Virus record (IMG/VR): IMGVR_UViG_3300018071_000003
Coordinates: 1 to 50,944 of that record
DNA: 50,944 nt
Direction: 5' to 3' (one strand)
Source: a virus
Position 1 is the first letter of the stretch. Each line of letters starts with the position of its first letter. Positions 6,422-50,418 of this stretch are shown piece after piece. Both the position numbers and the translations under genes were made by a program. A model generated the notes under the pieces. The model ran no database searches and was not told the origin of the DNA. It worked only from the letters and a program-made list of their open reading frames with translations.

Positions 6422-6422
6422 G

Positions 6423-7686: not shown

Positions 7687-8064
7687 TTAAACGATCCTCT
7701 CCCATCCATTATTACCATTGCTAATTACAAGAGCTTTGGACCATTGGGCAGCAAGAGCCACTGTTGCTGCTCCTTGTATAGTATCTGAGCCAGCCGCAGC
7801 AACCGTAACAGCATTGCCGGAAGCATCTATTTTGGTCACGAGTATTTGTCGTCCTTCCCTTGTTAAGGCTGCTGGCAGAGTAACAGTTCGAGCGCCGCCC
7901 GTTGCATCTTCTCGAACATGAAATACGTTGTCTGCCACAGTGTATGCTGCTGTTTGGGTGACAATTGCGGTGCGACGTTTAATTGCTCTGTAGATACTCT
8001 GGAACCATCCCTTCATTCCATAAGTTTCTTTACTTTCATAAACAGGAGGTTCTTGAATATCCAT
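7687..8064 (-). CDS. Small virion protein with beta-rich C-terminus
   Basis: A 125-residue protein. The N-terminal 30 residues are charged and aromatic. The remainder reads as a beta-rich domain: a run around residues 36-110 with Val-Thr-Leu-Pro and Val-Thr-Val-x-Ala-Ala-Gly-x-Asp segments, as found in phage tail or fibre head-binding proteins. It lies between the gp10-like tail-hub gene and the first ejection gene, with immediate stop-start junctions on both sides. The exact role is unknown. Confidence 0.6.
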   Translation of the reverse strand: MDIQEPPVYESKETYGMKGWFQSIYRAIKRRTAIVTQTAAYTVADNVFHVREDATGGARTVTLPAALTREGRQILVTKIDASGNAVTVAAAGSDTIQGAATVALAAQWSKALVISNGNNGWERIV

Positions 8065-9588: not shown

Positions 9589-10447
9589 AAATAAATCCTT
9601 GATTACCCGACGCCATAAGCGGTATGTATGTTATAACAATGATCCCATCAGTTCCATTCCCGCCTTGTCCACCTGGTATAACCCCACAAGTCGTCTTTGC
9701 AGCTCCTCCGCCGCCTCCACCACCAGCACCATAGTTACCACCTCCTCCAGCAACTTCTGGCTGTCCATCTAGTCCTACTCCGCCAGTTCCTCCTCCACCC
9801 CCACCTCCTGAACCTGCGCCACCACCAATTTCGCTTCCAGCAGAACCTACTGCTCCCGGAGAATCTCCGGCACCACCGGCACCGCCCGTTCCTGCATCCC
9901 CTGAACCTCCATTTCCGGGAGTCGAACTTGATCCAGATGTACCAACATTACCTGCACCATTCTTCCCGCCACCTCCGCCCCCTCCACCGCCACCGCCTCC
10001 ACTGGGATTGCCAGCGCCCCCGCCATTACCGCCATCTCCGCCATTCTGAGCACCTGTACTCGGTGTGCAGGATGAACCAAGTCCACCGATTCCTTTATTA
10101 GTAGGAAATCCAATACCAGAAGTACCTAATCCTCCACCTTTAGCAACTAATACTGATGTAAAAGTAGTGTCAGTACCAGCAGTTCCATTGGTATTACTAG
10201 AACCGTGATTGCCTTTGACTCCTACCACAAATGACGCGGTACCACTTAACGTAGTGTTAATTGCCTTCGCATACGCACCAGCACCCGCACCGCCTCCGCC
10301 GTTTCCGGCCGAGGATGTGCCTCCAGCCTTACCACCACCTCCGCCCCCTCCAGCTCCAATTCCCTCAATAGTATTGTTAGCATTGTTCCAATTGCTTGGA
10401 ACAGTCCAAGGGGAAGATGATGCAGTTGTGAGGACTACAACAGTCAT
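9581..10447 (-). CDS. Polyglycine tail fibre / adhesin-like protein
   Basis: A 288-residue protein with an N-terminal beta segment (W-T-V-P-S-N-W-N near 14-21) and then dozens of Gly runs, including a stretch of more than ten consecutive glycines around residue 160. It matches the glycine-rich domain class found in phage tail tips. Known adhesins of this kind, such as the gp38 adhesin of Salmonella phage S16, fold as packed polyglycine II helices with receptor-binding loops. The end overlaps the gp10-like gene by eight bases and the start overlaps the cupin gene by four. Receptor binding is inferred from composition. Confidence 0.65.
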   Translation of the reverse strand: MTVVVLTTASSSPWTVPSNWNNANNTIEGIGAGGGGGGGKAGGTSSAGNGGGGAGAGAYAKAINTTLSGTASFVVGVKGNHGSSNTNGTAGTDTTFTSVLVAKGGGLGTSGIGFPTNKGIGGLGSSCTPSTGAQNGGDGGNGGGAGNPSGGGGGGGGGGGGKNGAGNVGTSGSSSTPGNGGSGDAGTGGAGGAGDSPGAVGSAGSEIGGGAGSGGGGGGGTGGVGLDGQPEVAGGGGNYGAGGGGGGGAAKTTCGVIPGGQGGNGTDGIIVITYIPLMASGNQGFIFG

Positions 10448-10713
10448 AGCGGATGCACCGTTACGACTATAGCATCGGTGAGAGCCTCGAAGTTATGCAG
10501 CGCGCCAGTCGGAAAGTGAACTGTGTCCGGTGCCGTGAGATCCTTGCAGATCGGTCCGATTTGTACACGCACGATACCTTGCGAAATAAACATATCATGG
10601 GCATACAACTGGTGCTGATGTTCGGACACGCCTTCCCCCGAGCGAAGATGGAAAACCTGGATCTCATGCTTCGTGTCATAAGTCCGAAAAGGGACCGGAG
10701 ACTTGATTTCCAT
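10444..10713 (-). CDS. Small cupin-fold protein
   Basis: An 89-residue single-domain cupin. The first cupin motif is visible as E-H-Q-H-Q-L-Y-A-H-D-M-F at residues 36-47, giving the metal-binding H-x-H, followed by the strand G-I-V-R-V-Q-I-G. The second motif is P-T-G-A-L-H-N-F near 68-75, with its histidine. It sits inside the fibre genes, overlapping the polyglycine gene by four bases. Small phage cupins may bind a sugar or metal or act as structural caps. The substrate is unknown. Confidence 0.7.
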   Translation of the reverse strand: MEIKSPVPFRTYDTKHEIQVFHLRSGEGVSEHQHQLYAHDMFISQGIVRVQIGPICKDLTAPDTVHFPTGALHNFEALTDAIVVTVHPL

Positions 10714-11529
10714 TTAAGTTTTCGTCACTTTCAATGTGAGAACTGCACGTTGAATGGTTGTGATTGAATCAATATTAAACCGCAATGTGTCTCCTGCTGC
10801 AATTGTCGTAGTCCAACCAGTGAGCGTGGTATCCTCAGATTTGGTGGCTGTGGTAATTGTCGGTTTAGCACTTGCTGTAATTGTGTCTGCAACAGTCGGA
10901 GGATAGTTAGCATATGTATCTTTCCATATATCCACCACAATAGAGCCACTCTGATCTGCGAGAAGTCGATTGCCTGTAATTGTACAAGCAAAAGGAATAG
11001 ACAAGTCTCCTTTAATACCTGTTGTCAGAACAGATCCACCTCCATCAAATACATAAGTAATTGCTGCTTTATTCGCAATGGTTCCTATTGCATCTGCATA
11101 AGCAGTCGTAGCATAAAATGAAGCTCCTCTGAAATAGGACAAACATCTTACATTACCACCACCATCTCCTCTAAATACAGCAATATCTCCGGCAGCAGTT
11201 GTAATGTTTGCAGCACCTGGTAGGATAAGGGATGTGCCATTATGCGTAAGAGTTAAGATACCATCAAAAACTACAGTTCGCTCATCCCCAGACGACAAGG
11301 TAATTGCTGTAATTGTAGTTACGCCCGTAATGTGTACAAAATCTCCGGTTGCATTTGATAAATCAACAGTTGCACCAGATGCCTTGTCTGCACCCTTAAT
11401 CTTTAAGGCATCAAGAGCGGCAATGGCTGTAGCAGGATCGCCAAAAATTGTATAATGAAGTCGGTTTACATCATTAAACCAATCAGAATCTGAAAGGGTA
11501 ACTCCGTTGGTAAATGCAGTATCGCTCAA
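10714..11529 (-). CDS. Tail fibre-type virion protein
   Basis: A 271-residue, Thr/Ala/Gly-rich beta protein. The N-terminus (1-35) looks like a short attachment module. The C-terminal 110 residues match a domain found at the end of many phage fibre proteins, with the segment V-V-D-I-W-K-D-T-Y-A-N near 205-215 and a closing V-L-T-L-K-V-T-K strand. No enzymatic motif is visible. It probably forms part of a tail fibre or decorates the tail. One base separates its end from the cupin gene. Confidence 0.65.
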   Translation of the reverse strand: MSDTAFTNGVTLSDSDWFNDVNRLHYTIFGDPATAIAALDALKIKGADKASGATVDLSNATGDFVHITGVTTITAITLSSGDERTVVFDGILTLTHNGTSLILPGAANITTAAGDIAVFRGDGGGNVRCLSYFRGASFYATTAYADAIGTIANKAAITYVFDGGGSVLTTGIKGDLSIPFACTITGNRLLADQSGSIVVDIWKDTYANYPPTVADTITASAKPTITTATKSEDTTLTGWTTTIAAGDTLRFNIDSITTIQRAVLTLKVTKT

Positions 11530-33557: not shown

Positions 33558-33754
33558 TGCAGCATAATACACACGTCGTAATTAAGACATTGCCAGATTC
33601 TGTTATGGATGTGTTCTGGGGCATAGGATGGGACAATTGGAGTAGATGTCGTCTTATCTCAAGTCCGAAGCCAGACTTTGTGCATATGGCTGGTATTAAG
33701 CTACCATTTTACGTTCGCATTGCACTTGCTCGTTATCTGAGGTTAGATAAATGA
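33554..33754 (+). CDS. Small protein, unknown function
   Basis: A 66-residue protein rich in Trp (V-F-W-G-I-G-W-D-N-W near 20-29) with a basic C-terminal helix. ATG overlaps the preceding stop and its own stop overlaps the next ATG. No family is recognised. Confidence 0.55.
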   Translation: MMQHNTHVVIKTLPDSVMDVFWGIGWDNWSRCRLISSPKPDFVHMAGIKLPFYVRIALARYLRLDK

Positions 33755-33993
33755 AACCCTCTTGTTTAAACTTAGATGCTAAACAAACAAACGTTTTGAA
33801 AAAGTTTGTTAAATCTTTGAATAAACATAAATTAGCAGAATTATATGAAGAAACTTGTTCGATGGATGGACCAGTATTCCATTGTTATTCATCAGGACTG
33901 GGTGATGTTATATATGTAGAAATCTTAGGAAGGATTTGTCATTTAGAATATGATGATGATGGTAGAATAATCGGTGAAGTAAACTATGCGTAA
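33751..33993 (+). CDS. Small protein, unknown function
   Basis: An 80-residue protein: a basic helical N-terminal half (Lys-rich, about 10-30), then a beta-rich acidic C-terminus with two short hydrophobic strands. Four Cys residues are present but not in a zinc pattern. It is coupled by four-base overlaps to the gene before and overlaps the next by eight. Confidence 0.55.
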   Translation: MKPSCLNLDAKQTNVLKKFVKSLNKHKLAELYEETCSMDGPVFHCYSSGLGDVIYVEILGRICHLEYDDDGRIIGEVNYA

Positions 33994-34330
33994 ACTATAT
34001 TTAGTTTTAGAAACAACTAAGCTTGCTGTTCCTCCTGTGCCACATCCTCGCGCACCAAGAGCCCCGGAGGAGCAGGCTATTCGTCCACGCGCTGCTGATC
34101 GTCAAAGGCAGCCTGAGCCTGATGACGAACGATTTGAAATACATCAAAATGTTGACATAATCGTTTGCTATTCGATGCCTGAAGCTGAAGAATACATTGA
34201 TCAGCAACTTGAGCGACAGCCTCAATATAAGTTTATAATTTTTGAATCAATTGCTTTCCTTGAGACTGTTGCCTCTCCCACAATTCGTAAACTTTGGGAT
34301 GCCAACGGCCAACTAGTGGAGACAAGATAA
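33986..34330 (+). CDS. Protein with Pro-rich linker, unknown function
   Basis: A 114-residue protein. A short N-terminal strand is followed by a Pro/Arg/Glu-rich linker (about 15-45) and a folded C-terminal domain with I-I-V-C-Y-S-M-P-E-A-E-E-Y-I and K-F-I-I-F-E-S-I-A. The linker contrasts in composition with its AT-rich neighbours. It directly precedes the amidoligase cluster and may belong to it. Confidence 0.55.
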   Translation: MRKLYLVLETTKLAVPPVPHPRAPRAPEEQAIRPRAADRQRQPEPDDERFEIHQNVDIIVCYSMPEAEEYIDQQLERQPQYKFIIFESIAFLETVASPTIRKLWDANGQLVETR

Positions 34331-35065
34331 TTGGGACATGATTTTTGTCGTGCGCATTATCGAATTAAACATGAACAAGAAGACTCATGGCTTCAACCTC
34401 ATACCCAGTCTTGTTATTCTGAAGTTCGTGTCAATTATAATGCTGTTGCAATTCGGGTTAAATATATTCCAACTTTTAAGGGGACACCGGGGACACGTGG
34501 TAGTATATATCCGTGCCAGTTAACTCCTGCTAAAGCCGAAAGATTTATTAGTGATGTCTTGGAAATTTGTCCGGGAGTAGCAACTCGCGTAGATGAATAT
34601 GTGTTTGAATTTCCTCTCGGCACTTGGCCAAACTATTGGAAGTTTCTTGGGGTTGCTTCCCTTTTACGTTATATTGAAGAGTGGTGGATGTGGGTTGATC
34701 ATTATTTTGAAATGGTTGACAGCGGAATTCCAAAAGATGTTGCTGCAATTTGTATGGGACTTTATGATAAAGACAGTGTGGTGCTTTATTGTGGACACGC
34801 ATTTAATGGAACCTTGTCTGATTTAGCAAGTTTGAAAGATTTTAATTTAAAAGATGTATTCTTAAAATCTTGTGAAACTGCAACATCGCACTCAACTATA
34901 TGGCACCTGTTAAACCAACGTCCTTGGTTTACTGTTGGTGAGTACAATTTCGCCGACTGGTTCAAAATGACACCACAAATATATAAAATCTTTGTGAATG
35001 ACTCTTCGATTAAAGAAAAACAACAAGCACTTGGTATGCTTCATGTATACAAGGCACTTTTATGA
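34331..35065 (+). CDS. Unknown protein leading the amidoligase cluster
   Basis: About 244 residues starting at TTG 34331, immediately after the previous stop; GGAG sits about ten bases upstream. The sequence is rich in Trp, Tyr and His, with W-W-M-W-V-D-H-Y-F near 118-126 and L-Y-C-G-H-A-F near 152-158. I recognise no domain. The stop overlaps the ATG of the glutamine amidotransferase gene by four bases, so it is co-translated with it and may be a partner subunit or substrate-binding protein. Confidence 0.6.
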   Translation: MGHDFCRAHYRIKHEQEDSWLQPHTQSCYSEVRVNYNAVAIRVKYIPTFKGTPGTRGSIYPCQLTPAKAERFISDVLEICPGVATRVDEYVFEFPLGTWPNYWKFLGVASLLRYIEEWWMWVDHYFEMVDSGIPKDVAAICMGLYDKDSVVLYCGHAFNGTLSDLASLKDFNLKDVFLKSCETATSHSTIWHLLNQRPWFTVGEYNFADWFKMTPQIYKIFVNDSSIKEKQQALGMLHVYKALL

Positions 35066-35742
35066 AACTAGTCAGTGCAATTTATAAAGACTGGTATCCA
35101 TTTGATAAGATGTTTCAACAACTAAAAGTTGGATTCCATCCCATCCAACTTGACGGAGCTTCGGCGTTGTTGTTGTGGGGTGGCGAAGACATTAGCCCAT
35201 CTATTTATAGACAGAAGTGTCCGAAAATTGTTTATTCCGGTCCAGACGAGCCATCTGTTCGTGACTTAATAGAAATTGCTTTAGCCAAAGAAGCGATCCG
35301 TCTCGGCATTCCAATCATTGCAATTTGTCGAGGCGCACAACTCATGTGTGCATTATCGGGCGGAAGTTTATTCCAGCATGTGACACATCATGACGGTCCA
35401 TCTCATGTCTGTCAAACCGATGAAGGAGGAGAAATTGTGTCTAATTCAGTGCATCATCAGATGATGAATGTGGAGAAAACAAACTATCATCGAATCGCGT
35501 GGATTGAGCCTGGCATCAGTAGCGTGTACATAAATGGGGATGGGCCTATTGAGGATCATCCTAAGTTTGAACCTGAAATTGTCTATTTTCCCGAGACAAA
35601 AGCCCTTTGTATTCAAGGGCATCCAGAGTATATGGAAGAAAAGAATCCATTCGTGAAATATTGCTTAGAACTAGTTGATAAATATGTTCTGTCGAACGTA
35701 GTCTTAAACAAGACAGATGAAAATGAACACCATCGGAGCTGA
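35062..35742 (+). CDS. Class-I glutamine amidotransferase / gamma-glutamyl hydrolase
   Basis: A 226-residue protein of the class-I amidotransferase superfamily, closest in pattern to the PuuD/peptidase C26 type. The nucleophile is the Cys in I-A-I-C-R-G-A-Q-L near residue 91. The catalytic His and Glu lie in I-Q-G-H-P-E-Y near 186-192. The oxyanion region is L-L-W-G-G-E-D near 37-43. It would release ammonia from glutamine or cut gamma-glutamyl bonds. Its gene overlaps both neighbours and leads into two amidoligases, an organisation described for phages in the amidoligase survey of Iyer and colleagues (2009). Confidence 0.85.
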   Translation: MKLVSAIYKDWYPFDKMFQQLKVGFHPIQLDGASALLLWGGEDISPSIYRQKCPKIVYSGPDEPSVRDLIEIALAKEAIRLGIPIIAICRGAQLMCALSGGSLFQHVTHHDGPSHVCQTDEGGEIVSNSVHHQMMNVEKTNYHRIAWIEPGISSVYINGDGPIEDHPKFEPEIVYFPETKALCIQGHPEYMEEKNPFVKYCLELVDKYVLSNVVLNKTDENEHHRS

Positions 35743-36487
35743 TCCCGAGCTGTTCTTGCAAGATAAGTCAGGTAAGTTTATATCGGCAGTTGGGAAATTC
35801 GGCGGCACAAAAGAACAACCACGCCCGCTGCTTAACATTCCCGGTTATATGGTGCAGGAAGATAATGTAGCGGTGGAGTTTAATATTCCACCTTGTGAAA
35901 TTGGAAACTCTCACAACTTTTCCCAGTCAATTGCAATTGCGATGAATGCACTTGAGCAAGAAGCACATGCGCTCAAGCTTAAGCTTGTTGTTGTAGCATC
36001 TGCTGAGTTCGAAGCTGATCAACTTGTAGCCCCACAAGCTAGGCGATTTGGGTGTGATCCTGATTTCAATGTGTGGTCGTTGAAGGTAAATCCTCCGCCT
36101 CGTGCAAAGAACAAAGCACTACGTTCTTGCGGCGGACATGTCCACTTTGGAGGAAGGTTTACAGATAAAATTGGTTTTGGTCGGGCGTGTGATTTATTTA
36201 TGGGATGCCCAAGTATTTTATTTGACCCAGATCAAAATAGACGACTCTTGTATGGTAAAGCTGGAGCAATTAGATACAAACCATACGGAATTGAGTATAG
36301 AACCCTATCCAATTTTTGGGTTAAATCAGAGGAATTGTCTGCTATGATTCACGATCAAGCAGTGAAGGTCTTTAATTTCAGGAAGGTAATTCCTGATGAG
36401 GATGGGCGTGCAATTATTAAGTGCATCAATGAAATGGATCAAAATTTACTACGAGAACTCACTGAAAAATATGGATTAATTTATTGA
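35717..36487 (+). CDS. Phage-type COOH-NH2 ligase (amidoligase)
   Basis: A 256-residue protein matching the phage-type COOH-NH2 ligase family (Pfam COOH-NH2_ligase_2), which has the glutamine-synthetase fold. Signature parts are I-G-A-D-P-E-L-F near 6-13, V-A-V-E-F-N near 51-56, F-G-C-D-P-D-F near 112-118, G-G-H-V-H-F-G near 138-144, and L-Y-G-K-A-G-A-x-R-Y-K-P-Y-G-x-E-Y-R-T-L-S near 175-195. These would bind ATP and metal to activate a carboxylate and join it to an amine. The start overlaps the amidotransferase gene by 26 bases; a Met three codons on is an alternative. Confidence 0.85.
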   Translation: MKMNTIGADPELFLQDKSGKFISAVGKFGGTKEQPRPLLNIPGYMVQEDNVAVEFNIPPCEIGNSHNFSQSIAIAMNALEQEAHALKLKLVVVASAEFEADQLVAPQARRFGCDPDFNVWSLKVNPPPRAKNKALRSCGGHVHFGGRFTDKIGFGRACDLFMGCPSILFDPDQNRRLLYGKAGAIRYKPYGIEYRTLSNFWVKSEELSAMIHDQAVKVFNFRKVIPDEDGRAIIKCINEMDQNLLRELTEKYGLIY

Positions 36488-37117
36488 ATGGATAACCTCG
36501 AAGATTTTCATCAGAAATATCACAACACTTGGGTTCAATATCGTTCTGATGGTGTGTTGTCTCCAGCTCTAATTGAATTGATACAATTTGGTGAAAAATT
36601 AATATATATTCGTAGTTTGGAACTTGGAATAGTGTCGATTAAATATACAGAAAACCAATTGAAAGAGAAATTAGAACTATCACCGCCCCAAACCGGGTAT
36701 TTCAATTATAATGGGCACGCACTTGTCTTATTCAAGATTCCCGTAAGACAGTGGCGTGTCGGGCTTTGTCATGAAAATCATGAAATATACAATCCTTTCA
36801 AATACCTGTTGAATTCCGGAGTTTATCGTCCAACCTTCGGAGAAAGAACAGTAAGCGCTTTATTCAATCCAGCTTACATTCCTGACCCTCAAATAGCTTA
36901 TTCTATGTTTAATAAGAGCACTCATTCCGTTGCTCTTTCATGCCATCTTATGATTTCTAAATCACCTACAGAGAAACATTCAGGGCCACTTATCTGGTTT
37001 GATTGTAATCCATGTGGATTTATCCAAAGATCAAAATTTGTAGTCGAGGATGAATTATTTCGACAGGAAATTGAAGATGAATTACATCGCCTTGGACAAG
37101 AGAAATGGATTTTTTAG
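36488..37117 (+). CDS. Unknown protein inside the amidoligase cluster
   Basis: A 209-residue protein starting directly after the previous stop. It contains Y-F-N-Y-N-G-H-A-L-V near 71-80, W-R-V-G-L-C-H-E-N-H near 89-98 and W-F-D-C-N-P-C-G near 175-182. I recognise no family. Two ligase genes enclose it and its end overlaps the next gene by 13 bases, so it is likely a subunit or acceptor for the same reaction. Confidence 0.6.
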   Translation: MDNLEDFHQKYHNTWVQYRSDGVLSPALIELIQFGEKLIYIRSLELGIVSIKYTENQLKEKLELSPPQTGYFNYNGHALVLFKIPVRQWRVGLCHENHEIYNPFKYLLNSGVYRPTFGERTVSALFNPAYIPDPQIAYSMFNKSTHSVALSCHLMISKSPTEKHSGPLIWFDCNPCGFIQRSKFVVEDELFRQEIEDELHRLGQEKWIF

Positions 37118-38133
37118 CACACCTTGTTAAAGATTATGGAGGTCGTTGGAATGATCTTGCCCGGCTAAGTTATCCATTTGAAGATTATATGAAAGCAATT
37201 CCAGTTGCTAGCTATAAACCATTTGAAATGGTGCGTCCTCGTTTGAAAATAGGTATTGAAGTAGAAGTAGAAAAGGTAGCTCATCATCTAGGTGTGAATA
37301 TGGCCAATGAAATGTGGATGACACGAGAGGATGGTTCTCTCAGACAAGGTGGAATCGAATTCGTCTCTATTCCAATTGCAGATCAACAAATTCCTTGGGC
37401 CATTCACTATTTATTCGATCAATATTTACCTAAAGACGCTGATTTCTCAGCCCGCACATCTATTCACGTCCACGTGAATGTCCGTAATTGGTCATGTAAG
37501 GAGATTTTGAATTTGATTTTGTTATACATTGTGTTTGAACGGTTGTTATATCGTTTTGCAGGACCACAACGCTATCAAAACATTTTCTGTGTGCCTATTC
37601 GAGAAACAAAACTGCCAATTGTATTATCAAATTATTTAGCAAATGGAAATTTTCAAGGTTTGCTAGAATCTTGGACTAAATATAGTGGACTTAATTTAGT
37701 ACCTATTCGTAAATTTGGGACAGTTGAATACAGGCATATGCGTGGACACCGTAACACTGAATATCTTTTAAATTGGATTAATGTTATTCAGCAACTTCAC
37801 AAAACAGCATGTAACGTAGATTTTATTGAATTATTTGATGAAATTAAAATGTTAAATACAACTTCTTCGTATGAACAATTTCTTATGAATACATTCAAAG
37901 ATCAATCTGTGTTTCTACTTGGTAAATGTAGTTTACAACGAGAAATGGAATACGGAGTTTCTATAGTAAAAAGTATTCAACCACCATCGCAATTTATTAA
38001 AAAACTACTTAATGACATTTCAAATGAATCCGACTTGCTTCAAAGTTTGAAAATAATTGATAAACAAACTAAAAAAGATATTAATTACTATGCCCCTGGG
38101 GTTTGGGATGTCATTGATGGAGTAGTAAGATAA
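37105..38133 (+). CDS. Amidoligase (Amidoligase_2 type)
   Basis: A 342-residue protein of the amidoligase superfamily. Signature parts are the G-I-E-V-E-V-E strand near 50-56, R-E-D-G-S-L-R near 74-80, G-I-E-F-V-S-I-P near 83-90, and S-I-H-V-H-V-N-V-R near 119-127, followed by F-G-T-V-E-Y-R-H-M-R-G-H near 205-216. These resemble the ATP- and metal-binding sites of glutamine-synthetase-like ligases. It is a second, distinct ligase in the cluster, so two successive amide bonds could be formed. It overlaps the preceding gene by 13 bases. Confidence 0.8.
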   Translation: MDFLAHLVKDYGGRWNDLARLSYPFEDYMKAIPVASYKPFEMVRPRLKIGIEVEVEKVAHHLGVNMANEMWMTREDGSLRQGGIEFVSIPIADQQIPWAIHYLFDQYLPKDADFSARTSIHVHVNVRNWSCKEILNLILLYIVFERLLYRFAGPQRYQNIFCVPIRETKLPIVLSNYLANGNFQGLLESWTKYSGLNLVPIRKFGTVEYRHMRGHRNTEYLLNWINVIQQLHKTACNVDFIELFDEIKMLNTTSSYEQFLMNTFKDQSVFLLGKCSLQREMEYGVSIVKSIQPPSQFIKKLLNDISNESDLLQSLKIIDKQTKKDINYYAPGVWDVIDGVVR

Positions 38134-39570
38134 ATGTGTGGAATTGTAGGGCTTGTAACTAAATCAACTAATGGTTGTACTGCTTTTCAGCAGGAACTAT
38201 TTGCTGAAATGTTAGTGTGTGATGCAATTCGTGGAGAGGATTCCACAGGTATTTTCGCAGTTAATAATTCCGGAAACGTCACTTACATTAAACTTGCAAG
38301 TCATCCTTTTAATCTTCTTAAGACCAGCGAATATCTAACATTAAAACAGGATTCTTGGAACTCTGGACGTATCTTGGTTGGTCACAATCGGAAGGCATCA
38401 AGTGGAGCAATTTCTAACGAAAATGCACACCCATTTGCATTTGGGCCTATTGTTCTTGTTCATAATGGGTTCATTGATAATTTTCGTAGTCTCGTTCATC
38501 ACAAAGAACGTGAGAAGAACAATATTGAAGTAGATTCTCATGCATTAACGTCTTTGTTGGCGCGCAATGATCCAATGAAAATTATTCCTGAATTGAAGGG
38601 AGCTTTCGTTATCATATGGTATAACGCAACAGAGAAAAAACTATATTTTGTTCGCAACACAGAACGTCCGTTTTCTTTAGTAGATATAAATGATGGAATT
38701 TATTTTGCGTCGGAAAAAGGAATGCTTCGATGGCTCTTGCATCGTCATCAAGCTAAAGCCGAAATTGCAGAAATAAAACCCGGTGTCTTACTTTCCTTAG
38801 ATGAGAATAATGTTTGGGAAAACAGGCCCGTTAAGCTTTATGAGAAACCTGCGGTGTTTGTTCCTAAAGAATATGCTCCACCAGCAACAAATGGAGAGAT
38901 AGTTTATCTCCCTAACCAAATTAAGCAAGTTCCCAAAACAATTGACATGAAACTTGAGGAATCATTTAATATCCATTATGGTGATGATCATGATGTTGAT
39001 TTGACTAATGCACCACCCTTTCCACAAATTGTATTCTCTGTTGACGACTACAAGAAAGTCTCTGAAGACCACGTAAATCCTCCTGTATGGAGACTGTGGG
39101 GCAAGGCACTAGACTCGGAACAAATTGATGTCTATTGTCAATTTAGAGGAACAGAAACACAATGTGACGAATATGCCTATCAGGCATTTTTAACAGGGCA
39201 CATTAGTAGGGTCTCCGATAGAATTATCAATAATCAACAGGGTCAGGCTGTTTACTGTCTGCATCCGAAACTATGCGAAATTACAGCAACGTCAGATAAT
39301 TTCGCAATTACCACAGAGCATTTAGCATATTTGCAGAATAAATCTAAATGCACTTGTGGGCATGTGGAAATTTCGACTATGAATGATGAAGACAAGGTAG
39401 TTATGAGACTTGGATTTGAAACTCAGATAACCTGTAAATGGTGTTTAGTAAATACTCCAGAGTGTAAAGAATTGTGTAAAGAGCCAGGGCAATGTCAATA
39501 TTGTGTGGGTGAAAAACAAAAGGAAGAAGGTGAAAAGCTTAAGAATATTGCCGTACAAGCCAGGAAGTAA
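38134..39570 (+). CDS. Class-II glutamine amidotransferase
   Basis: A 478-residue protein. It begins M-C-G-I-V-G-L-V, so removal of Met exposes the Cys nucleophile at residue 2 of Ntn-type amidotransferases. Further family parts are R-G-E-D-S-T-G near 33-39, G-H-N-R-K-A-S near 84-90, H-P-F-A-F-G near 99-104 and V-H-N-G-F-I-D near 108-114. The N-terminal 250 residues are the amidotransferase; the rest has no clear domain but ends with many Cys (C-T-C-G, C-K-W-C, C-K-E-L-C, C-Q-Y-C), likely zinc sites. It would give ammonia to a ligase. It begins right after the amidoligase and overlaps the ATP-grasp gene. Confidence 0.85.
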   Translation: MCGIVGLVTKSTNGCTAFQQELFAEMLVCDAIRGEDSTGIFAVNNSGNVTYIKLASHPFNLLKTSEYLTLKQDSWNSGRILVGHNRKASSGAISNENAHPFAFGPIVLVHNGFIDNFRSLVHHKEREKNNIEVDSHALTSLLARNDPMKIIPELKGAFVIIWYNATEKKLYFVRNTERPFSLVDINDGIYFASEKGMLRWLLHRHQAKAEIAEIKPGVLLSLDENNVWENRPVKLYEKPAVFVPKEYAPPATNGEIVYLPNQIKQVPKTIDMKLEESFNIHYGDDHDVDLTNAPPFPQIVFSVDDYKKVSEDHVNPPVWRLWGKALDSEQIDVYCQFRGTETQCDEYAYQAFLTGHISRVSDRIINNQQGQAVYCLHPKLCEITATSDNFAITTEHLAYLQNKSKCTCGHVEISTMNDEDKVVMRLGFETQITCKWCLVNTPECKELCKEPGQCQYCVGEKQKEEGEKLKNIAVQARK

Positions 39571-40369
39571 GTCCGCTAGAGCCATTGCTAAGGCGCTCAA
39601 TGGATTGAGAGTTAGATTCAATGGTTTGTTCCGCCCAAAACTTAAACATCTTGTGGTCAATTGGGGTAAGGTAGCCAAGCCTAGGTGGTGGATTACCGGA
39701 TTGAATGATCCTGCGAAAGTGCAACTATCATCAAACAAGCTAACGGCATTGTCGTGTTTAAGACAAGCAGGAGTTTCCACACCGGAGTTTACTGATGACA
39801 TTCAAACAGCGCGTCAATGGTGGTTGTCCGGATCAGTTGTTGTCGGACGACAGATTTTAAATGGTCACGGAGGTATAGGATGTATTATTTTTCATAAAGA
39901 TCGAGACGACGTTGACGGTGGGTTTGACGGAGAACCACGAGATTGTCCTTTGTATACTAAACACCTACGTCATAAACGTGAATTCCGCATTCATGTCTTT
40001 AAAGGACAAATAATTGACCAAGTTGAAAAGCTCAAAAAGAAAGGATTTGAAAACCGTAACTCATGGATCAGGAACTACAATAATGGATATGTCTTTGTAC
40101 GTGGCGGTGTTGTCATTCCCAAATGCGTACGAATGGAAGCACTTCAAGCTGTCCAAGCCCTACAGCTTGACTTCGGGGCAGTCGATGTGGCGTATCGTGA
40201 AAAAGAAGACAAAGCCTACGTGCTAGAGTGCAACACAGCACCGGGTATTGAAGGGCAAACAATTAGGAGCTACATTGAAGCAATTAGACAAGAACTTCAA
40301 AGGAAGGTAAAATCCAATCATGGTAACCACTTTATTCATCTTCTTAGTATTCAACGGAGAAAAAAATAA
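39530..40369 (+). CDS. ATP-grasp ligase
   Basis: About 279 residues from GTG 39530, preferred over GTGs at 39503 and 39509 because of the AGGA sequence at 39521. The fold pattern is that of ATP-grasp enzymes of the phage or YheC/D-like type: a Gly-rich N-G-H-G-G-I-G loop, K-R-E-F-R-I-H-V-F, and the C-terminal V-D-V-A-Y then V-L-E-C-N-T-A-P-G, giving the Mg-binding Asp, Glu and Asn. Such enzymes form peptide or amide bonds through an acylphosphate. It closes the cluster and overlaps the class-II amidotransferase gene by 41 bases. Confidence 0.82.
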   Translation: MKSLRILPYKPGSKSARAIAKALNGLRVRFNGLFRPKLKHLVVNWGKVAKPRWWITGLNDPAKVQLSSNKLTALSCLRQAGVSTPEFTDDIQTARQWWLSGSVVVGRQILNGHGGIGCIIFHKDRDDVDGGFDGEPRDCPLYTKHLRHKREFRIHVFKGQIIDQVEKLKKKGFENRNSWIRNYNNGYVFVRGGVVIPKCVRMEALQAVQALQLDFGAVDVAYREKEDKAYVLECNTAPGIEGQTIRSYIEAIRQELQRKVKSNHGNHFIHLLSIQRRKK

Positions 40370-40392: not shown

Positions 40393-40617
40393 ATGCGCTG
40401 CGTAGCTTGTGACTGTGAATTGAAAGAGCATGAATCCAAACGAAAAGGATTGTTCAGCCGTGAATACATTGATCTGTGTGACGCCTGTTTCGTAACAATT
40501 GCCGATGATTTTCCTCTGGCCACTGGCAATGATGCAGTGGATGACGATTTACGGAAAGAATATTCCAACCCCACCAGCCCCACTTGGGAAGATGACAGCA
40601 ACGAAAATTTCGATTAA
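40393..40617 (+). CDS. Small zinc-ribbon protein
   Basis: A 74-residue protein starting after a TAGAGG site. C-V-A-C-D-C near residues 3-8 and C-D-A-C near 29-32 give a zinc-ribbon pattern. The C-terminal half is acidic, like single-strand-binding-protein tails. Similar short proteins are found next to phage replication genes. It overlaps the next gene by 26 bases. Confidence 0.65.
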   Translation: MRCVACDCELKEHESKRKGLFSREYIDLCDACFVTIADDFPLATGNDAVDDDLRKEYSNPTSPTWEDDSNENFD

Positions 40618-41610: not shown

Positions 41611-41639
41611 TTGACAGTCTTTTAAATATATGTTATAAT
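41611..41639 (+). promoter_or_regulatory. Consensus sigma-70 promoter before helicase
   Basis: TTGACA (41611-41616), 17 bases, TATAAT (41634-41639), both perfect. It begins four bases after the primase stop and would give the helicase and polymerase genes their own transcript. The 100 bases after it are AT-rich with a TATATATATATATA run. Confidence 0.9.
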
Positions 41640-42986: not shown

Positions 42987-43024
42987 GCTAGTTGTAATTC
43001 TCGTTACTTTAATGAGTGTCAAGA

Positions 43025-43396
43025 ATGATTGAAGCTGCTCTCCTCTGCCTAGCCCTCAATTTATATCATGAGGGCGCGAAGGAGGAGCCATTACCCGGAC
43101 TATTTGCCATTGCTCAAGTAACTCTCAATAGGGCACAGCGTAATCCAGATAAAGTCTGTGAGGTGGTACAGGAATATAAGCAATTCTCATGGACATTGCG
43201 TCCTCCCAAGGTAGAAGAAGGTCCAGCATGGAGGCGTGCGCAGGATGTAGCTAAGTTATCTTTAAGTACGAATGATTTTACTGGAGGAGCAACCCACTTC
43301 GCAGCAATTTATGTAAATCCCTATTGGAAATCTGATATGACAATTCTTGGACAATGGGGATCTCACATCTTTTATAAACAGAAAAGAAAAAAATGA
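43025..43396 (+). CDS. SleB-like cell wall hydrolase
   Basis: About 123 residues from ATG 43025; a GTG nine bases upstream is possible. It matches the Hydrolase_2/SleB family, which cuts peptidoglycan glycan strands: L-Y-H-E-G near 13-17 with the likely catalytic Glu, I-A-Q-V-T-L-N-R near 28-35, Q-F-S-W-T near 53-57, and G-A-T-H-F near 87-91. It lacks an obvious signal peptide. Phage members act as endolysins or virion lysins. Its position in the replication block is unusual for an endolysin. Confidence 0.8.
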   Translation: MIEAALLCLALNLYHEGAKEEPLPGLFAIAQVTLNRAQRNPDKVCEVVQEYKQFSWTLRPPKVEEGPAWRRAQDVAKLSLSTNDFTGGATHFAAIYVNPYWKSDMTILGQWGSHIFYKQKRKK

Positions 43397-44019
43397 GGCT
43401 TGTAATTATCAGTGATACCCACTGCACTCAGCCAAACGTACCCGACGGTGATGTTCTAATTCATTGTGGGGATTTTACATTTCATGGTAGGGCGTTTGAG
43501 ACAAAAGATTCACTTGAATGGTTTAACAGCCTTCCACACAAGCATAAACTATTCACTGCTGGAAACCATGAACTTGGATGGGAAGATGAGGTTAAGCGGA
43601 ATGTTTATCTTGATTGGGCTTCAAAATGTACTTACCTGCATGCAACGGGCGTAGAAATTGATGGCGTAAAGTTTTGGGGTAGTCCTTTTCAACCGGACTT
43701 TATGGGATGGGCATTTCAACTTCCGAGAGGCAACCGCTTAAAGGAACATTGGAGTTTAATTCCAGATGATACCGACGTGCTAATTACACATGGTCCACCT
43801 TACGGATTTGGCGATACTAACGGCGATCCTCGGGACTTTCGTTTTGGAGATAAAGACCTGTTAGCTCGTGTCTTAGAAGTTAAACCCGATGTTCACTGTT
43901 ATGGTCACGCCCATGGCGGATATGGTCAATGGTTCTTTGAAGGCATTCACTTTATCAACGCAGCATTATTAAACGAGAGCTATATGCTCGCAAACCAACC
44001 TGTCGTGGTGGATTTATGA
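43393..44019 (+). CDS. Calcineurin-like metallophosphoesterase
   Basis: A 208-residue metallophosphoesterase. All metal-binding motifs are visible: S-D-T-H near 7-10, H-C-G-D-F near 24-28, G-N-H-E near 57-60, H-G-P-P near 129-132 and G-H-A-H near 169-172. The pattern resembles the MPPED-like phosphodiesterase group. The substrate is unknown; candidates are nucleic-acid ends, cyclic nucleotides or signalling nucleotides of the host. It overlaps both neighbours by four bases. Confidence 0.82.
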   Translation: MRLVIISDTHCTQPNVPDGDVLIHCGDFTFHGRAFETKDSLEWFNSLPHKHKLFTAGNHELGWEDEVKRNVYLDWASKCTYLHATGVEIDGVKFWGSPFQPDFMGWAFQLPRGNRLKEHWSLIPDDTDVLITHGPPYGFGDTNGDPRDFRFGDKDLLARVLEVKPDVHCYGHAHGGYGQWFFEGIHFINAALLNESYMLANQPVVVDL

Positions 44020-44366: not shown

Positions 44367-45062
44367 ATGAAGCTCTGTGTTGACACCGAAATTACCACCT
44401 ACGCGACAGGTAATGCTTTTAGCCGTCGTAACCATTTGTGCTGTGTTTCTGTTCGTTCGGACAACGACGGGGTTACTAGGTGCATCAAATGGGAGCATAA
44501 CGGAGAGCCAGTATCAGCAGATAATGTCTCATATCTACAGGATGCCTTAAACCGTGCCTTATTGGTCATTGGCTTTGCCATCAAATTTGACTTGCATTGG
44601 CTTCGCCGTTGTGGTATAATAGAGGGGTATTCTTTTGAAAACTTACAGATTTGGGACTGCCAACTCGCACAGTTTGTCATTCAATGTCAGTCGGAACGAT
44701 ATCCGTCACTCGACAAGTCGTGCGCTTATTTTAACCTTGGCCAGAAATCGACGATCATTGAGAAAGAATATTGGGATCGTGGAATTGATACGGACCAAGT
44801 ACCTTGGGAAATCTTAGAAGAGTATGCTAATCGGGACGTAGATTTGACGTGGGAGTTGTATCAAGCACAACAGAAATACTTGACCGACAAACCGGCCTTA
44901 CTACGTCTAATTAAACTGAGTTGCATGGACACACTTGTACTTGCGGAAATGGAATATAATGGTTTGAAATATGATGTAGAAGAATCTCTGAAAAGAGCAG
45001 CACAAAAACAACAGGAGATTGACGAAATTGAGAGGCAAGTTAAAAGCATCTGTCGTATTTAA
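44367..45062 (+). CDS. DNA polymerase A, part 1: exonuclease domain
   Basis: A 231-residue segment with the 3'-5' proofreading domain of family-A polymerases. Exo I is C-V-D-T-E near 4-8, Exo II is I-G-F-A-I-K-F-D near 68-75 and Exo III is Y-A-N-R-D-V-D-L near 152-159. The frame ends at a stop after residue 231, in the middle of the polymerase thumb. The continuation is found in another frame from 45040 on, so a single-base deletion or sequencing error in an A run (45041-45044) or T run (45057-45059) is likely. The start has GAGGA upstream. Confidence 0.8.
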   Translation: MKLCVDTEITTYATGNAFSRRNHLCCVSVRSDNDGVTRCIKWEHNGEPVSADNVSYLQDALNRALLVIGFAIKFDLHWLRRCGIIEGYSFENLQIWDCQLAQFVIQCQSERYPSLDKSCAYFNLGQKSTIIEKEYWDRGIDTDQVPWEILEEYANRDVDLTWELYQAQQKYLTDKPALLRLIKLSCMDTLVLAEMEYNGLKYDVEESLKRAAQKQQEIDEIERQVKSICRI

Positions 45063-45067
45063 GACTG

Positions 45068-45565
45068 ATGAATAATGCAGGTTTTAGCTTTAACAGTGGA
45101 GAGCATCTTTCCGCTCTTTTGTATGGTGGTGTTGTGCGTTTTGTTGAATCAACTCCTTATCTGCATACGTTCAAGACTGGGCCACTAGCAGGCCAAACGA
45201 AGGAACGATTCATTAAAAAGAAGATAGAGACTACTCTACCTCGCCTTGTCGAACCGTTACCCAAAACCGAGTTGAAGAAACTAGGTTATTGGTCTACGGA
45301 CGCATCAGTGCTAAGTCGGTTAAAAGCCAAAGGCACTGCTCGACGAGTCGTTGAGCTTATAAAACGAAGAAACGAACTCGAACGACTTGTTTCTACCTAC
45401 TATCATGGAATACCGAAAACCATTGAAGAGAAAGATTGGGAACCCGGATGGCTACACGGCCAGTTCAACCAAGTTACTGTTGTCACTGGCAGAACTTCGT
45501 CTAGTAGTCCTAATTTGCAAAACATGGCATCAGAGGTGGACGAATTAATAAAAACAAGGTTCTAA
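45068..45565 (+). CDS. DNA polymerase A, part 2: thumb and palm start
   Basis: A 165-residue segment in the -1 frame relative to part 1. F-N-S-G-E-H-L-S-A-L-L-Y-G-G near 8-21 is the thumb-region motif of phage family-A polymerases. V-V-T-G-R-T-S-S-S-S-P-N-L-Q-N near 137-151 is the strongly conserved segment before motif A. An ATG at 45068 could start it as a separate chain, or it is fused to part 1 in an undamaged genome. It stops 20 residues after the T-G-R-T segment, where the methyltransferase and HNH genes interrupt the polymerase. Confidence 0.8.
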   Translation: MNNAGFSFNSGEHLSALLYGGVVRFVESTPYLHTFKTGPLAGQTKERFIKKKIETTLPRLVEPLPKTELKKLGYWSTDASVLSRLKAKGTARRVVELIKRRNELERLVSTYYHGIPKTIEEKDWEPGWLHGQFNQVTVVTGRTSSSSPNLQNMASEVDELIKTRF

Positions 45566-46131
45566 TAGCCTGTGAATTTAGTGGCATTGTGCGCGAAGCC
45601 TTTAGAGTACGCGGCCATTCGGCATTATCGTGTGATCTGCTGCCTTGCGAGAGGGGACCAGAGCATCATTTACAGCAAGATATTTGTGACCTATTTGGTA
45701 CCATCCGCCGTTCGCTCGGTGACGGTTGGGAGCCTGATTTAATTATCGCTTTCCCTCCTTGTACGCATTTATCCGTAAGCGGGGCACGATGGTTCAAAGA
45801 TAAGCTTATAGAACAGGAAGAAGCTGTGAAATTTTTTATGGAAATGATAAATGCGCCAGCATTAAAAGTTGCGGTAGAGAATCCCATTGGCATCATGTCT
45901 ACTAGGTATCGTAAGCCAGATCAGATTATCCAGCCGTGGCAATTCGGACATCCTGAGACAAAGGCTACGTGTTTATGGCTAAAGAATCTGCCAAAACTAC
46001 AACCTACAAATGTTGTAGTTGGTCGTGAGGGACGGGTATGGAAACTAGGCCCATCCCCTAATCGATGGAAAGATCGTTCCAGAACTTACCAAGGAATTGC
46101 TGATGCAATGGCGGAACAATGGACTCATTAA
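45544..46131 (+). CDS. Cytosine-C5-type DNA methyltransferase-like protein, AUU start likely
   Basis: About 195 residues. Family features are V-L-I-A-C-E-F-S-G near 6-14 (AdoMet-binding motif I), I-I-A-F-P-P-C-T-H near 72-80 with the catalytic-type Pro-Cys, and V-E-N-P-I-G near 111-116. The GTG at 45589 would delete motif I, and no ATG, GTG or TTG lies upstream in frame. ATT 45544 has GAGG seven to ten bases upstream and is the best start. It overlaps the end of polymerase part 2 and the start of the HNH gene. The protein is short and lacks a clear target-recognition domain, so activity is uncertain. Confidence 0.7.
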   Translation: MNKNKVLIACEFSGIVREAFRVRGHSALSCDLLPCERGPEHHLQQDICDLFGTIRRSLGDGWEPDLIIAFPPCTHLSVSGARWFKDKLIEQEEAVKFFMEMINAPALKVAVENPIGIMSTRYRKPDQIIQPWQFGHPETKATCLWLKNLPKLQPTNVVVGREGRVWKLGPSPNRWKDRSRTYQGIADAMAEQWTH

Positions 46132-46493
46132 AATTCGCTTTGAATAAAAAAGAATATTATAAAGAATATTACCGTAGGAATAAATGGCGTTGGATTGAAC
46201 GTTATCATATTCTTACCGGAGAAGGTTCGGGAAGTAAAAAAGATTTAAAGGCATCTAATTATAAACATGGTCGAAGTTGTTTTCGTCGTTGGGCAAAGGA
46301 ACGCAAATTAAAACTACAACAATGTGAACGCTGTCAATGTAGTTTACTAAATGTTACATCATATCAATGGGCAGGACATCATAAAGATCACAATTCTACT
46401 AATAATACAATTATAAATTTAGAAGTATTGTGCAAGCGATGTCATCAAATAGAACACAAATGTTGGAAACAATTAAATGTTACTACAAGGTGA
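46119..46493 (+). CDS. HNH homing-type endonuclease
   Basis: A 124-residue basic protein. C-E-R-C near residues 68-71 and C-K-R-C-H near 108-112 form the zinc clasp, and G-H-H-K-D-H-N-S near 88-95 is the HNH core. It is more AT-rich than the methyltransferase gene. It overlaps that gene at its start and polymerase part 3 at its end, so the pair is wedged exactly between two polymerase segments. Such insertions at conserved polymerase sites are typical of homing endonucleases. Confidence 0.8.
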   Translation: MDSLKFALNKKEYYKEYYRRNKWRWIERYHILTGEGSGSKKDLKASNYKHGRSCFRRWAKERKLKLQQCERCQCSLLNVTSYQWAGHHKDHNSTNNTIINLEVLCKRCHQIEHKCWKQLNVTTR

Positions 46494-47217
46494 TATTAAG
46501 AGTTTGGAAATTGTAGCTGCGGCTTATTTAAGCCAAGATATCATCTTACAAGATGAAGTAAAACAAGGAAAGGATTTCCATAGTGATAATCAAAGGCGAT
46601 TTAAATTACCAGATCGTGTTACAGCAAAACGATTCGTCTTTAAGCTCATCTACGGAGCGTCTGCTTACGGATATGCAAATGACGGCGACTTCCAGACTAT
46701 TGGGTTTTCACAACGTCAATGGCAAGGAGTAATTGATGAATACTACGAGAAGTATAAAGGTATTCGACAGTGGCACCAAAACTTGGTGCGAAGCGTTCTT
46801 GAAACCGGATGCTACGTTTCTCCTACTGGTAGACGGTACGAGTACCCCTCTAAAGATGTTGCTTCAAGAGAGTGGTTCTGGAGACCTAGGATACTTAACT
46901 ATCCCGTTCAAGGACTTGGAGCAGATTTAGTGATGTTGGCTCGTATTAGTATGTGGAGACGAATACAAAGACTTGGTTTTTATGAAGTTCCTCCTGTTTC
47001 CAGTGTTCATGATTCGATTGTTCTAGACGTTCCGTCTGATAAATCTCTTGACATGAAGAAAGGATTGTGTTATACTATTGGTAAGATGTTGCGTAAATGT
47101 GTACAAGATGTTCCAATTAATTTCGAGAGGCAATTCGGCCAACCTTTCGACCTACCTTTAGATTGTGAAGTAAAGGTAGGACTTAACCTTGGGTCGATGG
47201 AGAAAATTGAATGCTAA
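46477..47217 (+). CDS. DNA polymerase A, part 3: palm and fingers
   Basis: A 246-residue segment with all polymerase catalytic motifs: motif A Q-G-D-I-K-S-L-E near 4-11, motif B R-V-T-A-K-R-F-V-F-K-L-I-Y-G near 47-60, and motif C V-H-D-S-I-V near 188-193. Its ATG 46477 directly follows an in-frame stop and lies in the end of the HNH gene, so it may be made as a separate chain that pairs with parts 1 and 2, or be joined to them by RNA splicing. It begins just where motif A should follow part 2. Confidence 0.85.
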   Translation: MLLQGDIKSLEIVAAAYLSQDIILQDEVKQGKDFHSDNQRRFKLPDRVTAKRFVFKLIYGASAYGYANDGDFQTIGFSQRQWQGVIDEYYEKYKGIRQWHQNLVRSVLETGCYVSPTGRRYEYPSKDVASREWFWRPRILNYPVQGLGADLVMLARISMWRRIQRLGFYEVPPVSSVHDSIVLDVPSDKSLDMKKGLCYTIGKMLRKCVQDVPINFERQFGQPFDLPLDCEVKVGLNLGSMEKIEC

Positions 47218-49415: not shown

Positions 49416-49618
49416 ACTTTGAAGAACCAACTCCAAATGGGATAGCACAATTTAGTGGAGAACTTACCAAAGAAGAAGTTGACTTCCTTCTGCGTTTCGC
49501 ACTACTTAGCTTACTTACACGTGGAATGCTTCCACAAACAATTGTAGTTAAGTACCCGAATGAAGATGAAGATATTATTGATGCGGAAATTATTCCGGAC
49601 AAGAAGGATATGAATTGA
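49406..49618 (+). CDS. Small acidic protein, unknown function
   Basis: A 70-residue protein from GTG 49406. It has a beta N-terminus, a hydrophobic helix (F-L-L-R-F-A-L-L-S-L-L) near 27-37 and an acidic C-terminus. No family is recognised. It overlaps the HNH gene before it and the phosphoesterase start after it. Confidence 0.5.
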   Translation: MQINFEEPTPNGIAQFSGELTKEEVDFLLRFALLSLLTRGMLPQTIVVKYPNEDEDIIDAEIIPDKKDMN

Positions 49619-50418
49619 AGCACCTTGTCATTCCAGATGCACAGTGTAAGCCCGGTGTACCTCTAGAGCACCTTACTTGGGCCGGTAAGTACATTGTCGA
49701 AAAGAAACCTGATACAATTATCTGCATTGGTGACTTTGCAGATATGGAATCCCTTTCGATGTACGATGTAGGCAAGAAAAGTTTTGAGGGCCGACGATAT
49801 CAGTCTGACATTAAGTGTGCTCACGAATCAATGGAATTGTTACTTAGTCCTATATGGGATTTTAATGAGAAAGCTGCTCGAAATCATGAGAAACAATATT
49901 TTCCTAGGATGGTTCTTACCTTAGGGAACCATGAGGATAGAATTTCTAGATGTGTAGATGCTGACCCTAAACTAGATGGAGTCTTGTCTCTAAAGGATTT
50001 AAAGTATGAAGACTATGGTTGGGAAGTTTTCCCTTACCTCGAACCCATTATTATTGACGGAGTGGCTTACTGTCACTTCTTTACTTCTGGAGTGTTGGGG
50101 AAACCTGTCACAAGCGCAGCGGCGCTCCTTACTAAGAAGCACCAGAGTTGTGCTATGGGACACGTTCAGGGAAGGCAAATTGCATATGGAACAAGAGCCG
50201 ATGGTACGCAAATTACTGGACTTTTTGTGGGAGGTTTCTACCAACACGATGAAGCCTACCTTAGATGGCAAGGAAACAAGCACTGGCGCGGCTTGTGGGT
50301 CTTGCACCAGGTCCGAGAAGGAAGTTTCGATGAAATGCCAGTGAGTTTAGAATATTTAGGGATGAAATATGGTGGAAAACCACAAGATTGGTATGACAAA
50401 AAAGTGTCCAACGTGTAA
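49615..50418 (+). CDS. Phage metallophosphoesterase
   Basis: A 267-residue protein starting at TTG 49615, overlapping the preceding stop. Metal-site motifs are I-P-D-A-Q near 6-10, I-G-D-F-A-D near 38-43, L-G-N-H-E-D-R near 102-108 and G-H-V-Q near 181-184, typical of phage calcineurin-like phosphoesterases. It differs from the smaller enzyme at 43393 in length and motifs, so the phage carries two types. Substrate unknown; a DNA-end or nucleotide-processing role would fit the nuclease-rich surroundings. Confidence 0.8.
   Translation: MKHLVIPDAQCKPGVPLEHLTWAGKYIVEKKPDTIICIGDFADMESLSMYDVGKKSFEGRRYQSDIKCAHESMELLLSPIWDFNEKAARNHEKQYFPRMVLTLGNHEDRISRCVDADPKLDGVLSLKDLKYEDYGWEVFPYLEPIIIDGVAYCHFFTSGVLGKPVTSAAALLTKKHQSCAMGHVQGRQIAYGTRADGTQITGLFVGGFYQHDEAYLRWQGNKHWRGLWVLHQVREGSFDEMPVSLEYLGMKYGGKPQDWYDKKVSNV

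Follow-up and report, generated by a model that had tools for sequence, protein, structure and literature searches.

A Podovirus-Type Phage Cassette Predicted to Make and Break Gamma-Glutamyl Amide Bonds

A 'peptidoglycan modification cassette' has been described in podoviruses, with RIO-1, PSA-HP1, LUZ24, PaP3, tf, phiEco32, 7-11, PA11, and CW02 as its published members (PMC5498523; PMC11945000). These descriptions propose that the cassette introduces three unusual linkages in peptide side chains, for superinfection exclusion or lysis, and they already list gamma-glutamyl cyclotransferase (GGCT) as a degrading enzyme (PMC5498523; PMC11945000). Later papers ascribe to Iyer et al. (2009) the proposal of a cell-wall modification that blocks superinfection, and a group working on OM43 phages cites Iyer et al. 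(2009) for the same cell-wall idea in phiEco32. Our search of the literature recovered no experiment on the cassette or its product. Outside of phages, pairs of a gamma-glutamyl ligase and a gamma-glutamyl hydrolase serve small molecules in the Puu pathway and in the biosynthesis of butirosin (BtrJ/BtrG) and ergothioneine (EgtA/EgtC). Here, we describe a cluster of seven genes at positions 34331-40369 of the IMG/VR virus record IMGVR_UViG_3300018071_000003, all 50,944 bases of which were analyzed and are termed the window, and evaluate how this cluster relates to these systems.

The window cluster is a newly found member of the published podovirus cassette. A COOH-NH2 ligase type 2 (protein C), an Amidoligase_2 (protein E), a class-II glutamine amidotransferase (GATase; protein F), and an ATP-grasp ligase (protein G) occur together on one strand, in a compact arrangement that includes protein D and lies beside replication genes. 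The window differs in encoding a C26 protein, B, instead of GGCT, as do 62 of the 101 loci with C, and no match to PF06094 (GGCT) was detected in the window record. GGCT was not treated as defining for the cassette; it is part of the RIO-1-like version and is absent in many relatives, and PA11, which is counted as a cassette member in the literature, also carries a C26-family B. An earlier note on this DNA rightly linked the cluster to Iyer et al. (2009), to whom later papers ascribe the cell-wall proposal, and did not recognize the cassette as already published. The results described below on the exchange of C26 and GGCT, the coupling of C and D with a cleaver, the core of E-F-G, and the modeled fold of D were not found in the literature searched, which excludes Iyer 2009 and Hardies 2013, and priority is not claimed for them. 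The genes of the cluster, and a small gene that follows it, are:

34331..35065, + strand: protein A, 244 amino acids, TTG start, no family assignment
35062..35742, + strand: protein B, 226 amino acids, C26-type gamma-glutamyl hydrolase-like, class-I GATase fold with C89/H187/E189
35717..36487, + strand: protein C, 256 amino acids, COOH-NH2 ligase type 2
36488..37117, + strand: protein D, 209 amino acids, no family assignment, core component between ligases C and E
37105..38133, + strand: protein E, 342 amino acids, Amidoligase_2
38134..39570, + strand: protein F, 478 amino acids, class-II glutaminase domain plus a distinct domain at the C-terminus that contains a conserved Cys cluster
39530..40369, + strand: protein G, 279 amino acids, RimK-like ATP-grasp ligase (longest open reading frame from 39503)
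40393..40617, + strand: protein Z, 74 amino acids, two CxxC motifs followed by a tail that is variable and strongly acidic; gene located between those for G (ATP-grasp) and primase

We propose, with a probability of roughly 0.55, that the chemistry of this new cassette member is the making and breaking of gamma-glutamyl amide bonds, as judged from sequence comparison. Protein B matched PF07722 (Peptidase C26) in Pfam (2.1e-18; 67 bits versus a cut-off of 20.5), and its alignment contains the C-H-E triad along with the ICRGxQ and HHQ motifs. The nearest solved relatives of its family are Lin1909 (3fij), 7d4r/7d50/7d53, and PuuD (6vtv), with carbamoyl-phosphate synthase ranking after them. The chains 7d4r/7d50/7d53 are from P. 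aeruginosa and are labelled 'probable glutamine amidotransferase'; they are taken here to be the gamma-glutamylpolyamine hydrolase SpuA. The two best NCBIfam models for B are those of PuuD (gamma-glutamyl-GABA hydrolase) and gamma-glutamyl-CDP-amidate hydrolase, both with scores far below their cut-offs. These comparisons favor a reading of B as a gamma-glutamyl hydrolase that resembles PuuD and SpuA over one in which it supplies ammonia.

The distribution of B among related phages points in the same direction. As a single-sequence query of viral contigs E matched nothing and alignments were needed; three alignment-based scans of viral contigs, together with named phages and bacterial contigs, yielded 206 dereplicated loci, of which 107, those that contain E and G and are flanked on each side by 3 kb or more, made up the scored set. 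Profile searches miss diverged members, and many viral records are fragments. Among the 101 dereplicated loci with C, 62 encoded B only, 18 encoded GGCT only, 20 encoded both, and one encoded neither locally, this last being Privateer, which encodes GGCT elsewhere in its genome. In whole records with C (n = 50; 49 plus the window, with one, L013, having two divergent ligases for C), 35 had C26 only, nine had GGCT only, six had both, and none had neither. In a further 23 records, a cleaver was present in all four with C and in one of 19 without C, where a lone G was accompanied by a distant GGCT. Combined, a cleaver (B family, GGCT, or both) was identified in 54 of 54 whole records with C versus 1 of 19 without C (Fisher p = 3e-16, in a test of related rows that is not corrected for kinship). 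On a tree of G, two supported clades (12 and 4 rows) have clearly lost C, D, and the cleaver jointly. Because two unrelated gamma-glutamyl-cutting folds exchange in one cassette and are tied to C, B is predicted to be a gamma-glutamyl hydrolase that acts on the product of C.

The same observations bear on the model put forward in the earlier note, in which B and F would both be glutaminases and provide the ammonia with which three ligases assemble a tag, bearing an amide or glutamine, on a protein or nucleotide. B does have a class-I GATase fold with a C-H-E triad, and the glutaminase site of F is intact. However, GGCT, whose reaction yields no ammonia, replaces B in 18 of the 101 loci, B is lost together with C and not with E or G, and the closest curated models and solved structures of B are largely of gamma-glutamyl hydrolases. 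B as an ammonia source was set aside on the basis of its exchange with GGCT and its loss together with C, so that the note's proposal of two ammonia sources is supported only in part, and we regard the two-glutaminase model as improbable.

Several points also weigh against the reading of B, and of the cassette, in terms of gamma-glutamyl chemistry. B scores far under the equivalog cut-offs of NCBIfam (30.6 bits versus a cut-off of 266 for the PuuD equivalog) and its substrate need not equal that of PuuD; moreover, its fold is common to true glutamine amidotransferases. The 20 loci that encode both B and GGCT indicate that the equivalence of the two may be incomplete. Many of the records without C are contig fragments, and statistics across related phages overstate independence. 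When corrected for kinship, the comparison of C with the cleaver left two to three independent pairs, all in the same direction (p = 0.25 or more), and that of B with GGCT left one to four, in the expected direction where they differed (p = 0.25 or more), with both comparisons being underpowered. Finally, the putative nitrogen role of F is read from its glutaminase domain.

Cassette genes are on one strand in 107 of 107 scored loci, with a median span of 4.7 kb, and the window has the commonest gene order, B C D E F G. This gene order is common to Kuravirus, LUZ24-like, Zobellviridae, Grimontviridae, and Rhizobium phages. The set was found together in phiEco32, tf, RIO-1, Rhizobium N3_13, HTN1, Klebsiella Asterion, Proteus Privateer, and Aeromonas 4_4572, as well as in Vibrio 1.262, Pseudomonas HHBS10_2, oyster-associated T2S1, and Alcaligenes QDWS535. 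In Stenotrophomonas StenR_269, divergent ligases take the place of C in the set; the Manatee Spring podovirus has all of the set but G in its annotated stretch, and a crAss-like phage encodes B, C, E, F, and G. E and G each matched more than 300 of 50,697 phage records. The suggestion in the earlier note that the genes act together is therefore upheld by the comparison of gene neighborhoods, and the genes are not scattered and independent in homologous phages.

A scan of 84,980 bacterial and archaeal species genomes with two short patterns, which was not exhaustive, identified 14 related loci, on contigs of metagenome-assembled genomes that were <50 kb and mostly had the phage gene order. These are probably phage contigs. 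Given the few loci, the small contigs, and the mostly phage order, a bacterial origin of the cassette was rejected and, within the reach of the two-pattern scan, the cassette is mainly a phage system.

Protein D, which almost every cluster encodes between C and E, is a core part of the cassette. The order C-D-E was observed in 93 of the 98 dereplicated loci that contain D, and D is encoded by 94 of the 101 C-containing loci versus 1 of the 6 that are without C, that one having divergent ligases. Individual sequence links among members of the D family are weak but chain together. An AlphaFold2 model built with 60 relatives (predicted local distance difference test score [pLDDT] 93.6; predicted template modeling score [pTM] 0.88) has an N-terminal SH3/Tudor-like barrel. 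A Foldseek comparison of the model with solved structures returned no PDB match at E<=0.001 and no full-length solved relative, with the top matches being Tudor/SH3-like barrels of ~55 residues (E ~0.1), while significant matches in BFVD were to uncharacterised phage proteins only. D may partner the ligases in a binding or scaffolding role. Protein A had no match in Pfam, PHROGs, or NCBIfam, nor among the 50,697 phage records, and had two weak matches only among the collected loci. Because it is without relatives in those phage records and has only these weak matches, A was rejected as a module member and probably lies outside the conserved module. Thus, of the two proteins of no recognized family that the earlier note included in the unit, D belongs to a conserved family and A probably does not belong to the module.

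Clusters without C and without a cleaver retain E-F-G or E-G, with E or F sometimes too diverged for detection by profiles. The complete circular genome of the OM43 phage MEP402 encodes a short F beside an amidoligase-like protein, gp06 (Amidoligase_2, 19.6 bits, below the cut-off of 22), and a search of that genome for B, C, D, G, and GGCT yielded no match. A core of E-F-G or E-G thus survives without C, D, and the cleaver. It is conceivable, and we offer this tentatively, that the pathway has two parts: an E-F-G core and a removable gamma-glutamyl protecting block comprising C, the adaptor D, and an exchangeable C26 or GGCT cleaver, such that the group would be put on and taken off during soluble or carrier-bound amide biosynthesis, not necessarily as a cell-wall change.

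In the proposed scheme, ligase C, with its partner D and ATP, would attach a glutamyl group (or another amine or carboxylate) to yield a gamma-glutamyl-type amide, and ligases E and G would add more amide bonds to that molecule. F would hydrolyze glutamine and provide nitrogen to an E or G step, or may itself be a gamma-glutamyl hydrolase. B would cleave the gamma-glutamyl bond, releasing the protecting group or correcting side products, and GGCT would perform this cleavage in other phages. We infer that C makes what B and GGCT cut, and the order of the steps and the role of F are likewise inferred.

Five of the seven proteins (B, C, E, F, and G) are recognizable enzymes in Pfam and PHROGs searches, and the expected catalytic residues are present in the alignments of all five, in agreement with the view in the earlier note that their active sites are intact; the check for missing catalytic residues was made here on sequence alignments. 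Protein C matched PF14395 (2.8e-11; 43.6 bits versus a cut-off of 25) and phrog_3815 (1.5e-67), and by family assignment its fold is glutamine-synthetase/gamma-glutamylcysteine-synthetase-like; its invariant residues are D9, E11, D49, E54, H141, H143, R186, K188, E193, and R195. Protein E matched PF12224 (1.2e-7; 32.3 bits versus a cut-off of 22) and phrog_7469 (1.6e-45), with invariant residues E52, E54, E56, D76, E85, H121, H123, E145, R156, E208, and R210 and the conserved motifs ExExE, HxH, and ExR. A sequence search found no solved structure for C or E. Protein G matched phrog_2599 (6e-68) and, at 17.5 bits, fell below the cut-off of 21 for PF08443; its family profile matched RimK structures (4e-11), and its relatives in the PDB are RimK (5zct/4iwx) and alpha-L-glutamate ligases (7qyr/7qys). 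The invariant Mg/ATP residues of G are D228, E242, and N244 (numbered from 39503). G more likely starts at the GTG at 39530 than at 39503 because the former is preceded by a AAGGAAGAAG ribosome-binding site.

Protein F matched PF13522 in Pfam (5.8e-16) and has a complete glutaminase site, with an N-terminal Cys (C2), the glutamine-binding residues R86/D134, and the oxyanion pair N111-G112. The model of F has domains at ~1-240 and 296-448. The relatives of the glutaminase domain are GlmS and PurF, and no synthase fold (SIS, PRTase, or AsnB type) was among the matches listed for F, which cover the glutaminase domain. F may provide E or G with ammonia, or it may itself be an EgtC-type hydrolase. 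None of the open reading frames in the collected loci matched two cassette families, so that no gene fusion names a partner, and extended versions of E, F, and G in other phages had no additional Pfam domain.

Among small-molecule pathways, the Puu pathway (PuuA/PuuD) and polyamine catabolism in P. aeruginosa resemble the cassette in the PuuD/C26 family of B and in the pairing of an ATP-dependent ligase with a gamma-glutamyl hydrolase; however, PuuA is a true glutamine synthetase relative whereas the window ligase is a COOH-NH2 ligase, and the polyamine oxidase and transporter have no counterpart in the window cassette. The protecting-group chemistry of butirosin BtrJ/BtrG is matched by an ATP-grasp ligase and, in related cassettes, an AIG2-type GGCT, although the cassette is without acyl carrier protein or aminoglycoside genes and the window uses C26 and not GGCT. 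Ergothioneine EgtA/EgtC offers a gamma-glutamylcysteine-synthetase-like ligase with a class-II GATase-fold hydrolase, yet F differs from EgtC in that its match is weak in NCBIfam (1.3e-6) and GlmS and PurF glutaminase domains score better. LysW/LysX shares a RimK-like ATP-grasp ligase and a small, acidic zinc-ribbon protein nearby, but Z is without the conserved C-terminal EDWGE motif and no lysine or arginine enzymes are in the cassette.

These likenesses allow for a product that is a soluble metabolite or modified amino acid (a defence antagonist or a redox or polyamine compound), possibly built on a small carrier such as Z in the style of LysW. Small molecules are what the ligase and hydrolase pairs of the Puu, butirosin, and ergothioneine pathways serve, the annotation of tf names a BtrG-like GGCT, and the start of Z is zinc-ribbon-like and its tail acidic. 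Z, however, has no conserved C-terminal Glu, no match to LysW, and occurs in only about half of the loci, which leaves this explanation unlikely. Members of the Z family lie between cassette and replication genes in 49 of the 107 loci and also occur in an OM43 phage without C. Z had no match in Pfam or NCBIfam, and the 49 sequences share no C-terminus or C-terminal Glu tail motif; given the unlike C-termini and the lack of a family match, Z was rejected as a LysW-like amino-group carrier. Z is associated with the cassette and its membership in the module is uncertain.

The published view is that the enzymes introduce three unusual linkages in rebuilding the peptide side chains of precursors of the host peptidoglycan, acting against superinfection or readying sites for lysis. 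This has been stated for RIO-1-like phages and a LUZ24-like phage (PMC5498523; PMC11945000) and is ascribed to Iyer et al. (2009) for phiEco32. RimK and D-Ala-D-Ala ligases are relatives of G, which would fit such a role. Further, D-Glu is gamma-linked in peptidoglycan and would suit gamma-glutamyl enzymes. Against this, the module has no transport, membrane, or Mur-type protein, the literature on the cassette contained no cell-wall measurement that we could find, and the endolysin of the window is a SleB-like Hydrolase_2, SleB being understood to act on glycan rather than peptide. A host cell-wall peptide as the substrate is a published guess, one that we consider possible and well short of even odds.

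In PaP3, ORFs 32-48 are middle genes and are expressed with DNA replication genes, not structural genes. By annotation of relatives (tf), p48 of PaP3 is C, p47 is D, and p43 is the ATP-grasp ligase. Because these middle genes are expressed with replication genes, the product of the cassette is likely to act before assembly. Of the targets for a tag named in the earlier note (a virion protein, a nucleotide, or a cell-wall precursor), the virion protein accordingly becomes less likely. Expression at the replication stage in PaP3 and a location next to the genes for primase and helicase in almost all of the genomes compared could instead suggest that the cassette modifies phage nucleotides or DNA. 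However, adjacency to replication genes is common to many middle genes and no cassette family is a known nucleotide-modifying enzyme, making this a very unlikely role. An anti-phage defence system was rejected because PADLOC models gave no match for the cassette.

Hundreds of phages, including widely studied Pseudomonas and E. coli phages, retain this compact set of up to three ATP-dependent ligases. The co-occurrence of C with a cleaver turns a vague idea into a directly testable one, namely whether B and GGCT each cleave what C makes. A positive answer would settle the linkage and allow a search for the substrate by mass. A product that is a cell-wall change would bear on superinfection and lysis, and one that is a metabolite may serve in host takeover or counter-defence.

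All seven genes described in the earlier note are real, and they are intact at the positions that it gives. An open reading frame scan recovered them all on the + strand (34331-35065, 35062-35742, 35717-36487, 36488-37117, 37105-38133, 38134-39570, and 39503-40369), and the + strand of the cluster holds seven open frames of at least 200 codons, with none in 200 shuffles of the region. Adjacent frames within 34331-40369 overlap or abut, as expected of the single translational unit that the note proposed; however, the genes upstream (33751-34330) are equally tightly packed, and the arrangement is therefore not distinctive. In the 50,944-base record, the minus strand carries the terminase, portal, and other virion genes, and the plus strand carries the genes for primase, helicase, parts of the polymerase, and exonuclease. 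The primase (40888) and helicase (41820) genes follow the cassette directly, a neighborhood that is also found in relatives.

A perfect sigma-70-like promoter, TTGACA-17-TATAAT with an extended -10, is located at 41611-41639 (+), just upstream of the helicase gene, and a second strong match (11/12) is at 31045 (+). These two best + strand matches (31045 and 41611) are both outside of the cluster, and a scan of the region overall found sigma-70-like sites to be no more numerous than in shuffles. The DNA polymerase is apparently split over at least three open reading frames (44367-45062, 45068-45565, and 46477-47217; +), with a DNA methyltransferase gene (45589-46131; +) between them. The SleB-like cell wall hydrolase (Hydrolase_2; 43016-43396, +) lies among the replication genes and away from the late genes, two separate metallophosphoesterase genes are at 43393-44019 and 49615-50418 (+), and a 1340-amino-acid late-region protein (1392-5414, -) had no PHROGs match and no significant Pfam match.

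Variants of the cassette were also observed in other phages. StenR_269 (L013) encodes, in place of C, two paralogues (6105-6992 and 7966-8973) that have the ligase-like motifs ExE, HxN, and ExK and no Pfam match. Five loci (L145, L150, L172, L107, and L098) have the distinct order (B) C G GGCT F E F, in which F occurs twice and D is not recognizable, with a gap of ~0.8 kb between C and G that may hold a diverged D. Rhizobium phage RHph_N3_13 (L007) has two class-II GATase genes (3464-4600 and 10041-11177) along with the full cassette. In Bacillus subtilis phage 031MP002 (L269), the rest of the cassette is absent in the stretch covered, and an E-family amidoligase is encoded with GGCT nearby (6003-6869 and 7971-8411).

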